Of a stretch of DNA of 64,000 bases, positions 15-2,861 are shown one piece after another. Source of the stretch: Gemmatimonadaceae bacterium (GTDB taxonomy: Bacteria > Gemmatimonadota > Gemmatimonadetes > Gemmatimonadales > Gemmatimonadaceae); the NCBI GenBank assembly GCA_025934775.1, contig JAICWO010000002.1, positions 248,001-312,000 on the forward strand, written 5' to 3'. The number at the start of each line of letters is the position of its first letter. The first letter of the stretch is position 1. The position numbers were made by a program, and so were the translations under genes. The notes beneath the pieces were generated by a model that did not search any database, was not told the DNA's origin, and saw only the letters and a program-made list of their open reading frames with translations.

Positions 15-815
15 ATGGAACGATCGACCGTCCGAGGCACGCTTCGATTCTCCGCCGCCCTCGCGCGCACGGCGCTCGCGGGCGCCATGGCGCATCGCGG
101 GACGTTCCTGCTCCAGGCGGGGCTCATGGCGCTCAACAACGCGATCTTCTTCACGTTCTGGATCGTGCTGTTGCATCGCGTGCACACCGTGCGCGGCTAC
201 GGGCTGCGCGACATGACGCTGCTCTACGGCATCGTCGCCGCCGGCGTCGGGCTCGCGATGATCGTCGCCGGCGGCGTGCGGCAGCTCGCGCGCGTCGTTC
301 AGGATGGCGAGCTCGATGCGGTGCTCGCCCAACCCAAACCGACGCTGCTCTACGTGCTCGGCCGGCGTTCGGGCGCGTCGGGCGTCGGTGACTTGGCCAC
401 GGGGATCGTGATGATCGCGCTCTCGGGCGCGGTGCATGCGTCCACGGTGCCGCCCCTCGTCCTGGCGATCGTCGCGAGCGCGGTCGTAATCGTCTCGTCG
501 GGCGTGATGTTCGGCAGCCTCGCATTCTGGCTCGGTCCCGTGGATGCGGCGACGCGCCAGCTCTTCGAGCTCGTGATCACGTTCGCGATCTACCCCGAGC
601 CATTGTTCGGTGGCGCGTTGCGCGTGCTGTTGTTCACGCTCGTGCCGTCGGCGTTCGTGGGCTATGTCCCCGCGCGCCTGGTGCAGTCGCCGACGGTGGG
701 CTTGGGCCTCGAGCTGTTCGCGATTGCCGCGATCTACGCGATGGTCGCGAGTTGGGTGTTCGGGCGCGGGCTGCGGTCGTACTGCGGAGGGAGCCGGTTC
801 GAGCTCGTGGGTTAG
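15..815 (+). CDS. ABC-2 type transporter permease (PF06182-like)
   Basis: This is an integral membrane permease of about 266 residues with roughly six hydrophobic segments. It resembles the ABC-2 'membrane_6' group, which pairs with a separate ATPase to export an unknown substrate. A GTG at base 6 is in frame, but the GGAGG at 1-5 sits nine bases before the ATG at 15, so the ATG is preferred. The ATPase and a possible second permease would lie upstream, outside the window. The family call rests on the TM pattern and on the cytosolic loop around residues 90-110 (ELDAVLAQPKP), which is typical of the group. The substrate cannot be inferred. Confidence 0.8.
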   Translation: MERSTVRGTLRFSAALARTALAGAMAHRGTFLLQAGLMALNNAIFFTFWIVLLHRVHTVRGYGLRDMTLLYGIVAAGVGLAMIVAGGVRQLARVVQDGELDAVLAQPKPTLLYVLGRRSGASGVGDLATGIVMIALSGAVHASTVPPLVLAIVASAVVIVSSGVMFGSLAFWLGPVDAATRQLFELVITFAIYPEPLFGGALRVLLFTLVPSAFVGYVPARLVQSPTVGLGLELFAIAAIYAMVASWVFGRGLRSYCGGSRFELVG

Positions 816-1684
816 CCCGCGAGCTCCTCCAGCTCCATCGCCGCGAGCGCATCACGATCGGCGACGGCGTCGAGCGCGGCGATCTTGCCGTTCGCGAACG
901 TGACCTCGAGCACGAGCAGCAGACGTCCCTTGGGTCGTACGAGAACTCCAATCGTTCCGTCGATGAGGCCCGGCACGGCGGCCTGTGCGCGTCCGTTGAA
1001 ATATCCGGCGACGAGCTCGGCGCCGCGCGCCTCGGCCGGTCCACCCATGCGGATCCCCTGCGCGTCGGAGCGAAGAACGACGTCGGGATCGAGCACCGCG
1101 ACGAGCGCCGCGAAGTCGCCGGACTTCGCCGCGGCGACGAAGGCTTCGACGATCTCCCGCTTTCGCGTGCGATCGAGGTCGCCGGTCGTCCCGCCCTGCA
1201 CGCGGCGCCGCGCGCGGCTCGCGAGCTGGCGCGTGGCGACGGGCGTGCGTCCAACGATCGGCGCGATCTCGTCGAACGGAAGATCGAACATGTCGTGGAG
1301 CACGAACGCGACGCGCTCCGCCGGCTCGAGCGTCTCGAGCACCACGAGCAGCGCGAGCCCGACCGAGTCGGCGAGCTCGACTTCCTCGTCGGGCGAGCGC
1401 GGCCGGCGTTGCTCGATCGCGGCCTCCGGTTCGATCCCATCCAACGTTTCCTCGTGCCGCGCGTTGCGTGCGCGGAGCATGTCGAGGCAGACGCGACCAA
1501 CGACCGTCGTCATCCAGCCCTCGAGATTGTCGACGCTCGACGCATCGGCGCGGCTGATGCGGAGCCACGCCTCCTGCACGGCGTCGTCCGCTTCGGCGGC
1601 CGAGCCGAGCATGCGATAGCCGATGCGCCGCAGATGCGCACGGTGTTCGTCGAATCGTCGGGCCAGCAGCTCGCGTTCATCCAT
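812..1684 (-). CDS. ECF sigma factor with C-terminal SnoaL-like domain (ECF41/SigJ type)
   Basis: This is an extracytoplasmic-function sigma factor of 290 residues. Region 2 lies at about 8-75 (RIGYRMLG, then AEADDAVQEAWLR), region 4 at about 115-165 (LPFDEIAPIVGRTPVATRQ), and a SnoaL/NTF2-like extension at about 170-288. In the ECF41 group the extension controls activity in place of an anti-sigma factor. The WLPEP linker motif described for ECF41 is not visible, so a related SnoaL-tailed group (ECF56 or ECF294) is possible. The divergent neighbour is a carboxymuconolactone-decarboxylase-like gene, the usual genomic partner of ECF41. An ECF41-type promoter reading into this gene sits at 1721-1747, which suggests autoregulation. 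Its 3' end overlaps the end of the upstream permease gene by four bases on the opposite strand. Confidence 0.9.
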   Translation of the reverse strand: MDERELLARRFDEHRAHLRRIGYRMLGSAAEADDAVQEAWLRISRADASSVDNLEGWMTTVVGRVCLDMLRARNARHEETLDGIEPEAAIEQRRPRSPDEEVELADSVGLALLVVLETLEPAERVAFVLHDMFDLPFDEIAPIVGRTPVATRQLASRARRRVQGGTTGDLDRTRKREIVEAFVAAAKSGDFAALVAVLDPDVVLRSDAQGIRMGGPAEARGAELVAGYFNGRAQAAVPGLIDGTIGVLVRPKGRLLLVLEVTFANGKIAALDAVADRDALAAMELEELAG

Positions 1685-1685
1685 C

Positions 1686-1747
1686 GGTCACACTCTCGCA
1701 TTGCGTTACGTCATGATCATGACGGATGGCAGCGCTCGAATGTGACG
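1686..1747. promoter_or_regulatory. Face-to-face pair of ECF41-type promoters sharing a palindromic centre
   Basis: On the plus strand GGTCACA (1686-1692), 16 bases and CGTC (1709-1712) match the ECF41 consensus TGTCACA-N16-CGTC, as I recall it, at ten of eleven positions. On the minus strand CGTCACA (1747 down to 1741), 16 bases and CGTC (1724 down to 1721) match equally well. The two -10 elements lie inside a perfect 16-bp palindrome, 1709-1724 (CGTCATGATCATGACG). The plus promoter would drive the gene at 1809. The minus promoter would drive the sigma gene with a leader of about 30 bases. Because the -10 elements are only eight bases apart, polymerase probably cannot occupy both at once. 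Confidence 0.72.
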
Positions 1748-1808: not shown

Positions 1809-2312
1809 ATGCCAAAGCTTCCACAATCGACCGCCGTGGCCGAGCCGCCGGTCGTGATCGAACCGCGCCTGGACAACCCCGCGGCTCTCATGCCCGACGC
1901 GTTGGAAGGCATTCAGAAGCTGCTCGTCGCCGTGCACAAGGGCGGCCTGCCGGAGAGCACGATCGCGCTCACCCACATGCGTGCCAGCCAGATCAACGGA
2001 TGCAGCTCGTGCATCGAGGGCACGATCAATCACGTGCGCAAGTCCGGCGGTGAGCTGGACGATCGCCTGCTCATGGTCGCCGCGTGGGCGCATTCATCGC
2101 AATTCAGCGAAGCCGAGCGCGCGGCGCTCGAGCTCACCGAGGAGATGACGCGGCTCGCTGATCGGCGGGATCCGGTGCCCGACGAAACGTGGAGCCGCGT
2201 CGCCGAGCACTATGACGAGCGCGCGATCGCCTCGCTGGTGTTGCACGTGGCGCTCACGAACCTCTTCAACCGGCTGAACGTTGCGACGAGACAGCCGGCC
2301 GGGGATTGGTAG
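1809..2312 (+). CDS. Carboxymuconolactone decarboxylase/AhpD-like protein
   Basis: This is a cytosolic protein of 167 residues of the CMD/AhpD alkylhydroperoxidase superfamily. The hallmark block (RASQINGCSSC) is near residues 57-67, followed by the usual EAERAALELTEEM helix and a C-terminal LTNLFNRLNVATR segment. The CxxC pair is intact. The His that normally stands four residues after the second Cys is replaced by Thr, and a His occurs three residues later. A good GAGGAG ribosome site precedes the ATG. Divergent transcription from a SnoaL-type ECF sigma gene, with a matching promoter, marks it as the sigma factor's likely target, probably for oxidant or thiol redox stress. Confidence 0.88.
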   Translation: MPKLPQSTAVAEPPVVIEPRLDNPAALMPDALEGIQKLLVAVHKGGLPESTIALTHMRASQINGCSSCIEGTINHVRKSGGELDDRLLMVAAWAHSSQFSEAERAALELTEEMTRLADRRDPVPDETWSRVAEHYDERAIASLVLHVALTNLFNRLNVATRQPAGDW

Positions 2313-2396
2313 CGGCGCCCGGGCGGCGGCGAGGTGGTGATGCGAGGCGGAGTTCTTTGTAAGTTGGATTGTGAACCCGCCATTGGAGCTCGTTCA

Positions 2397-2861
2397 GTGA
2401 TCCCGCACGTGCTGGGCACGCTCACACTCCTCGCCGTCGCGCTGCTGTTCGGCGCCACGTGGTACGAAGCCGTGGTGATGGCGCCGAACTACGAGCGTGA
2501 TGTGCCCGATTCGCTGTCGCTCGCACGGCAGTTCCTGCAGCGCACCACGCCGGCGCACTACTTCAGGGTCGTGGCGCCCATCGCACAGATCCTGGCGCTG
2601 CTCAGCGCGATTTTCGCGTGGAAGTCAGCCGCCCGCTGGCCGTTTGTCGTCGCGTTCGTGCTGCTCGTCCTCGGCGACGTGATCACGTTCGCGTTTCATT
2701 ATCCCCGGCTCGCGATCATGTTCAAGAGCGACGCGGCGCAGGTGCCCGGCCGTCTCGCGCGTGCGGCGCGCGAATGGGCGATCGGGAACTGGGTGCGAGG
2801 AGTGCTGTTGGCCCTCGTCGTGCTGGCGTTGCTGCACGGCCTGTTGCGGCTCGCGGTATAG
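2397..2861 (+). CDS. Four-TM membrane protein, DUF1772-like
   Basis: This is a hydrophobic protein of about 154 residues with four predicted membrane spans and a polar stretch (YERDVPDSLSLARQF) after the first span. The layout resembles DUF1772/anthrone-oxygenase-like small membrane proteins, but no catalytic motif is visible. The GTG at 2397 is chosen because GGAG stands eight bases upstream and the first membrane span begins at once. The in-frame extension from 2334 encodes no family-like sequence. It follows the CMD-like gene on the same strand at about 85 bases and may be co-transcribed with it. Function unknown. Confidence 0.65.
   Translation: MIPHVLGTLTLLAVALLFGATWYEAVVMAPNYERDVPDSLSLARQFLQRTTPAHYFRVVAPIAQILALLSAIFAWKSAARWPFVVAFVLLVLGDVITFAFHYPRLAIMFKSDAAQVPGRLARAAREWAIGNWVRGVLLALVVLALLHGLLRLAV

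Follow-up and report, generated by a model that had tools for sequence, protein, structure and literature searches.

The closest described counterparts of the locus considered here are the ECF41 sigma factors with their neighbouring COE genes and, for the arrangement of the promoters, the bidirectional promoters of the housekeeping sigma factor. TGTCACA-N16-CGTC was established as the ECF41 promoter by 5'-RACE and lacZ in B. licheniformis and R. sphaeroides, and in divergent ECF41/COE loci the motif is often present before both genes (36 and 41 of 55 loci), as reported in the available passages of that paper (Wecke et al., 2012; PMC3426412). The relative placement of the two motifs is not given in these passages. 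The sequence given for the RpoE9 promoter of S. meliloti is CGTCATGGTGTCG, and its +1 is a G nine bases past CGTC (PMC6180224); this +1 was read here as the last base of the listed sequence, the point at which the rows with a marked start end in that source. In bidirectional promoters of the housekeeping sigma factor, a near-symmetric TATAAT serves both directions (Warman et al., 2021, as cited in passages of PMC10268837 and PMC12825309). According to the same passages, the starts on opposite strands most often lie 18 bp apart, and distances of 10 and 23 bp are common as well (PMC10268837; PMC12825309).

The window, i.e., the whole stretch of 64,000 nucleotides that was analysed, contains two ECF41-type promoters that face each other between a sigma factor gene and a divergent carboxymuconolactone decarboxylase (CMD) gene. 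The features are as follows (positions in the window).

1686 to 1747, both strands: candidate bidirectional promoter element of 62 bp, composed of two interlocked face-to-face promoters (from sequence and conserved geometry)
1686 to 1692, plus strand: -35 box GGTCACA of the target (CMD) promoter; the first base is mostly G across loci in the logo
1693 to 1697, minus strand: putative Shine-Dalgarno sequence GAGAG of the sigma gene, located in the target promoter's spacer, where the logo built from 104 loci shows a purine-rich GGGGAA
1709 to 1712, plus strand: -10 box CGTC of the target promoter; the sigma transcript is predicted to have its +1 here, at base 1712, by the start distance of the S. 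meliloti RpoE9 promoter (PMC6180224)
1713 to 1720, no strand: 8-bp gap ATGATCAT separating the two -10 boxes; its outermost A and T are about 90% conserved across loci
1721 to 1724, minus strand (read 1724 to 1721): -10 box CGTC of the sigma promoter; the CMD transcript is predicted to have its +1 here, at base 1721
1741 to 1747, minus strand (read 1747 to 1741): -35 box CGTCACA of the sigma promoter
812 to 1684, minus strand, ATG at 1684: ECF sigma factor with sigma2-sigma4 and a C-terminal SnoaL/NTF2-like domain, ECF41-like (SigJ-like), predicted to be autoregulated
1809 to 2312, plus strand, ATG at 1809: CMD target gene (AhpD-like, Pfam PF02627), with a predicted leader of 88 nt

As the sequence-only reading of this DNA had proposed, each promoter matches the ECF41 consensus in 10 of 11 bases with a 16-bp spacer, from 1686 to 1712 on the plus strand and from 1747 to 1721 on the minus strand. 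The first is directed at the CMD gene and the second at the sigma gene, again as claimed. The locus thereby resembles the ECF41/COE loci in the available passages of Wecke et al. (PMC3426412), which have the same -35/-10 motif with a 16-bp spacer and a sigma gene beside a CMD or other COE gene. The -35 box of the target promoter falls between the putative Shine-Dalgarno sequence and the start codon of the sigma gene, on the opposite strand. Chance pairing of half-sites was ruled out as an explanation. The exact half-site GTCACA-N16-CGTC occurs eight times in the 4.9-Mb genome (six times for the reversed-pattern control), so that chance would supply about 3e-6 mirrored pairs for a single gap length and 1e-4 for 31 lengths together, and a scan of the whole genome returned the pair in the window only. 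Downstream of the CMD gene, an ORF at 2334-2861 (plus strand) has a weak, below-cut-off match to anthrone oxygenase (PF08592) and may be co-transcribed with CMD.

The window sigma scores above cut-off for Pfam Sigma70_r2 and Sigma70_r4_2, and its C-terminal extension has a weak match to SnoaL_2, a domain detected in 29 of 33 aligned members. The AlphaFold model (mean pLDDT 86) predicts an NTF2-like tail, which matches NTF2-like enzymes including ketosteroid isomerases. The first structural match of the whole model is M. tuberculosis SigJ (5xe7), which is also the best match by sequence, and the second is SigG1/ECF56 (7qh5); both combine, like the window sigma, an ECF core with a C-terminal SnoaL/NTF2-like domain. 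With sigma2 and sigma4, a SnoaL/NTF2-like extension of about 100 aa, a promoter matching in 10 of 11 bases on both sides and a linked COE (CMD) gene, the locus has several of the features by which ECF41 is recognised. However, WLPEP in the sigma2-sigma4 linker and NPDKL and DGGG in the extension are all absent from the window protein. The same holds for most of its own sigma group (clade A) compared with canonical ECF41 (clade B): WLPEP is found in 3/55 vs. 79/91 proteins, NPDKL in 2/55 vs. 67/91 and DGGG in 2/55 vs. 76/91. In their place, clade A has a linker REEPL...P.P and a C-terminus ADPxRL. WLPEP and NPDKL are thought to let the tail of ECF41 hold the linker, and the replacement of all three motifs implies that the contact between tail and core differs from that in ECF41. 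The window sigma is therefore best called ECF41-like, a member of a sister clade that, judging from the sequences, has the promoter motif in common with ECF41. The label ECF41, as initially given, was thus exact for the promoter (10 of 11) and approximate for the protein. A paralogue of the window sigma in the same genome (G000:C12:17304-18170, L002; 54% identical) lacks a recognisable promoter pair upstream.

Conservation of the arrangement was assessed in a collection of 84,980 genomes, which was scanned for pairs of exact half-sites that face each other, any gap from 0 to 30 bp being allowed. This yielded at least 119 stretches, which are to be seen as a sample, with Rhizobium and Bradyrhizobium over-represented among the matches listed. 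The spacing of eight bases between -10 boxes, for which the initial reading had suggested searching, accounts for 106 of the 119 matches listed; the gap is 9 bp in five and 11 bp in three, gaps of 5, 10, 21, 23 and 24 bp are represented by one stretch each, and none is 6 or 7 bp. At least 115 of these 119 matches have a window-like sigma gene adjacent and divergent. The stretch with gap 5 (L055) has no such neighbour and represents background. Among the matches listed, the gap-8 loci belong to Pseudomonadota (48, all Alphaproteobacteria), Actinomycetota (44), Acidobacteriota, Chloroflexota, Myxococcota, Dormibacterota and Armatimonadota, i.e., at least seven phyla and at least 38 genera, and the phylum of the window supplies further face-to-face cases. 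The 8-9 bp gap and both promoters are conserved across phyla. The divergent partner is CMD in 71 of the 103 readable loci; among the others, those tested with Pfam include MFS transporters, glyoxalases, NmrA/epimerases, an FAD-binding protein, an ABC ATPase, a polyketide cyclase and TrmO. Three stretches with long gaps, of 23, 21 and 24 bp (L038:5243-5317, L051:6225-6297 and L112:6556-6631, respectively), keep a gap-8-like core (CGTC-N8-GACG, with GACT in L051) and have a second GACG box 13-16 bp beyond it. They look as if a short insertion or duplication displaced one promoter.

A scan with the motif selects for the motif, and loci were therefore also gathered by sigma protein alone, with promoters scored afterwards. 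They were taken from the phylum of the window, Actinomycetota, the class of Bradyrhizobium (G315), Chloroflexota and Acidobacteriota. Clade A comprised 45 loci, with loci of genomes picked via the motif left out, and clade B, the canonical ECF41 with WLPEP/NPDKL, comprised 102. A face-to-face pair is present in 28 of the 45 clade-A loci (gap 8 in 20, gap 9 in seven and gap 4 in one), including all four of the nearest relatives examined in the phylum of the window (L136, L137, L138 and L141). The pair is not essential, since about one third of the clade-A loci lack it or have their promoters arranged differently. Clade-B loci with a recognised arrangement most often have one promoter that precedes a same-strand upstream gene (tandem). 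At the stricter threshold, 11 of the 12 clade-B loci with promoters in two directions have them back to back, with the -35 boxes -7 to 47 bp apart, and none has a short face-to-face pair (Fisher p 4e-6 compared to clade A); a looser threshold admits two weak face-to-face pairs, with gaps of 6 and 20 bp. At 41 tandem promoters, no mirror half was found (0-6 of 11 bases matching). Face-to-face placement as a trait of all ECF41 promoters was ruled out by the tandem and clade-B promoters, which have no mirror half.

Sampling of 246 genomes from the phylum of Streptomyces (G249) gave exact face-to-face pairs with gaps of 8, 8, 9 and 9 bp, exact back-to-back pairs with cores 10, 12, 13, 18 and 26 bp apart, and zero pairs for the reversed control patterns. 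In a FastTree tree of 147 proteins, all 38 labelled face-to-face loci fall within one clade of 55 members (support 99). Among the loci gathered by sigma protein, the face-to-face arrangement is thus restricted to one sigma clade, and it is associated exclusively with divergent genes of that clade. Some individual loci deserve mention. L225 bears its tandem label on the tree only because of a long sigma leader; the same locus, as L104, has a gap-8 pair. In L141 (G076:C45:128957-129816), a gene related to the sigma gene is broken into two frames, through a frameshift or a sequencing error, with its promoter pair intact. The clade-B loci L146, L151 and L154 have perfect boxes with a promoter spacer of 15 bp instead of 16 bp.

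The element is probably a bidirectional promoter, conserved in loci of ECF41-like sigma factors with a SnoaL tail. In the reading preferred here, to which we assign a probability of about three in four on the basis of the sequences, it serves one alternative sigma factor, whose holoenzyme would start either the CMD gene or the sigma gene depending on the orientation in which it binds.

The alternative that survives best accepts both promoters as real and takes the 8-bp gap to be functionless, having arisen once in the ancestor of the clade and been inherited since. All face-to-face loci lie in one sigma clade, which is consistent with a single origin. However, the sigma proteins of these loci differ by 40-50%, their spacers are only about 47% alike between loci, and the leader of the target gene comes in 32 distinct lengths between 21 and 190 nt (longest-ORF rule), so that the DNA beside the element tolerates insertions and deletions while the gap stays fixed. 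Among the matches listed the gap remains at 8 or 9 bp and avoids 6 and 7, and the back-to-back pairs of the sister clade drift in spacing. Mere inheritance of the gap is thus considered unlikely. A second alternative holds that just one half-site works as a promoter, the other being a relic or a chance match. It finds some support in the clade-A paralogues L171 and L174, which have lost the target-side -35 box and kept the sigma-side promoter. Conservation of one promoter alone, which had been named as an outcome that would speak against the paired arrangement, was not what was found: both halves are intact together in more than 100 loci and in near relatives. In addition, the available passages of Wecke et al. 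report the motif before both genes in many divergent loci (PMC3426412), and the one-promoter reading is accordingly improbable.

For the preferred reading of a two-way promoter, the following mechanism is proposed. RNA polymerase with the sigma factor would bind the 62-bp element in either orientation, one orientation starting the CMD gene and the other the sigma gene. When the distance of the RpoE9 promoter is applied, i.e., that of one mapped promoter of a canonical ECF41, the starts are predicted at 1721 (plus) and 1712 (minus), 9 bp apart, and at a gap of 8 bp each coincides with the first base of the opposing -10 box as read on the other strand. With starts at these positions, the transcripts would diverge without overlap or common template, and both would begin with GACG. 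Each -10 box, read on the opposite strand, would act as the initiator of its partner, with T at -1 and G at +1. The base after CGTC is an A in 27 of 30 face-to-face promoters compared to 6 of 12 other clade-A promoters (p 0.009), as expected if this base is also the T(-1) of the partner, with G(+1) next.

Both -10 boxes would lie within one melting region, so that only one polymerase at a time could open the element. Given the established footprint sizes of RNA polymerase, the DNA covered by the polymerase would be nearly the same in both orientations, and mutual exclusion of the two promoters is therefore likely, judging from their overlap. Such exclusion would hold at many gap lengths and does not by itself explain a gap of 8 bp. 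Instead, the gap may be fixed by the dual use of the boxes inside the common melting region. The outcome would be positive autoregulation of the sigma factor, coupled to expression of the target, in which the ratio of sigma to target would be set by the relative strengths of the two promoters and not by the sigma level. The wider proposal is that the element represents a promoter class of one ECF sigma clade, in which the -10 box doubles as the opposing initiator, the choice of orientation fixes the sigma-to-target ratio and selection holds the gap at 8-9 bp; the odds for this proposal are about even.

Like the housekeeping bidirectional promoters, as far as these are described in the available passages of the cited sources, the proposed element is a single stretch of DNA that would take the polymerase either way, and not both ways together. 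The starts of the housekeeping type lie 7-25 bp apart on opposite strands; for the window, a distance of 9 bp is predicted from one mapped ECF41 promoter. The two differ in their construction, since the housekeeping type uses one common near-symmetric -10 element whereas in the window each direction has a CGTC box of its own, 8 bp from the other. Because CGTC lacks self-complementarity, the element consists of two complete -35/-10 promoters that interlock, each with its -10 box on the predicted start site of the other. Moreover, the housekeeping type is scattered over many sites, while the element of the window is one locus with predicted autoregulation, kept across at least seven phyla. It would thus represent a different geometric solution to two-way transcription than the symmetric housekeeping -10. 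Compared to the available passages on ECF41 (PMC3426412), it is new that the face-to-face geometry is fixed and confined to one clade, and that this clade lacks WLPEP/NPDKL. A literature search for bidirectional or face-to-face ECF promoters, with most subscription journals outside its coverage, returned no such arrangement.

The sister ECF41 clade, which does the same job with back-to-back or tandem promoters, provides a natural control, and direct tests become feasible of how the overlap affects autoregulation and of whether the polymerase really chooses its orientation. The locus also poses the puzzle of why a spacing is conserved that steric exclusion alone does not need. In practical terms, the element offers a sequence signature for finding the targets of an unstudied sigma clade, as well as a compact two-way promoter for building circuits.

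The initial reading had further suggested that mutual exclusion would couple target expression to autoregulation and could give a switch-like output. The geometry, which would bar two polymerases at once, agrees with the first part. The second part was addressed in a minimal steady-state model with a monomeric, non-cooperative sigma factor, positive feedback and one shared site. This model has a single steady state at every setting tried, and exclusion cuts the maximum output by half and makes the response slightly less steep. According to the model, the layout should couple the target to the sigma factor at a fixed ratio and should not create a switch by itself. In favour of a bistable switch built from mutual exclusion and autoregulation, the layout implies both positive feedback and steric exclusion; such a switch is nevertheless highly improbable, as the model is monostable at all settings tried and as ECF41 sigma factors are described in the literature with a fused regulatory domain and without an anti-sigma factor, so that there is no known titration step that would add cooperativity. 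In bidirectional promoters of E. coli, there is no competition at low activity, and opposing polymerases compete only at high activity (PMC12825309). By analogy, competition at the element may matter only when the sigma factor is fully active.

The last point concerns the symmetry of the element. Both -10 boxes and the gap form a perfect 16-bp palindrome, CGTCATGATCATGACG, at 1709-1724, and 22 of the 31 pairs of positions in the 62-mer are symmetric. This palindrome, which had been pointed out from the start, is mostly particular to this locus and is not conserved as such, as only 6 of 104 loci have a palindromic gap. In the logo of 104 oriented gap-8 loci, the sigma side reads TGTCACA-TCGGCCGGGTTTCGTT-CGTCA and the target side GGTCACA-TTCC...GTTC-CGTCA; the start codon of the sigma gene directly abuts the element, and a purine-rich Shine-Dalgarno sequence on the sigma strand lies within the spacer of the target promoter. 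Symmetry over these loci is limited to the -35 and -10 boxes and one base on each side. The spacers of the two arms agree at 5.20 of 16 positions within a locus, compared to 5.13 +/- 0.14 between different loci. Relatives keep CGTCA....TGACG and vary in the inner six bases. The conserved trait is the CGTCA-N6-TGACG box geometry and not the palindrome, and the 16-bp palindrome of the window is partly a local coincidence, because the spacers of relatives are asymmetric and their gaps rarely palindromic. The element could also be read as an operator whose inverted repeat is bound by a dimeric transcription factor, or as a signal that forms a cruciform or hairpin, with the likeness to promoters being secondary. 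Such a reading would fit the near-palindrome and the perfect arms of one relative (L086, see below), but is the least probable explanation of all, given that the symmetry ends at the promoter boxes, which rules out a palindromic operator, that the two spacers of one locus resemble each other no more than they resemble those of other loci, and that the constant neighbour is a sigma gene. The relative in question, Ktedonobacter robiniae (L086:6028-6087), is unlike all other loci in having a perfect inverted repeat with 27-bp arms that include the spacers, which suggests either that one arm was recently converted by the other or that a different constraint applies.
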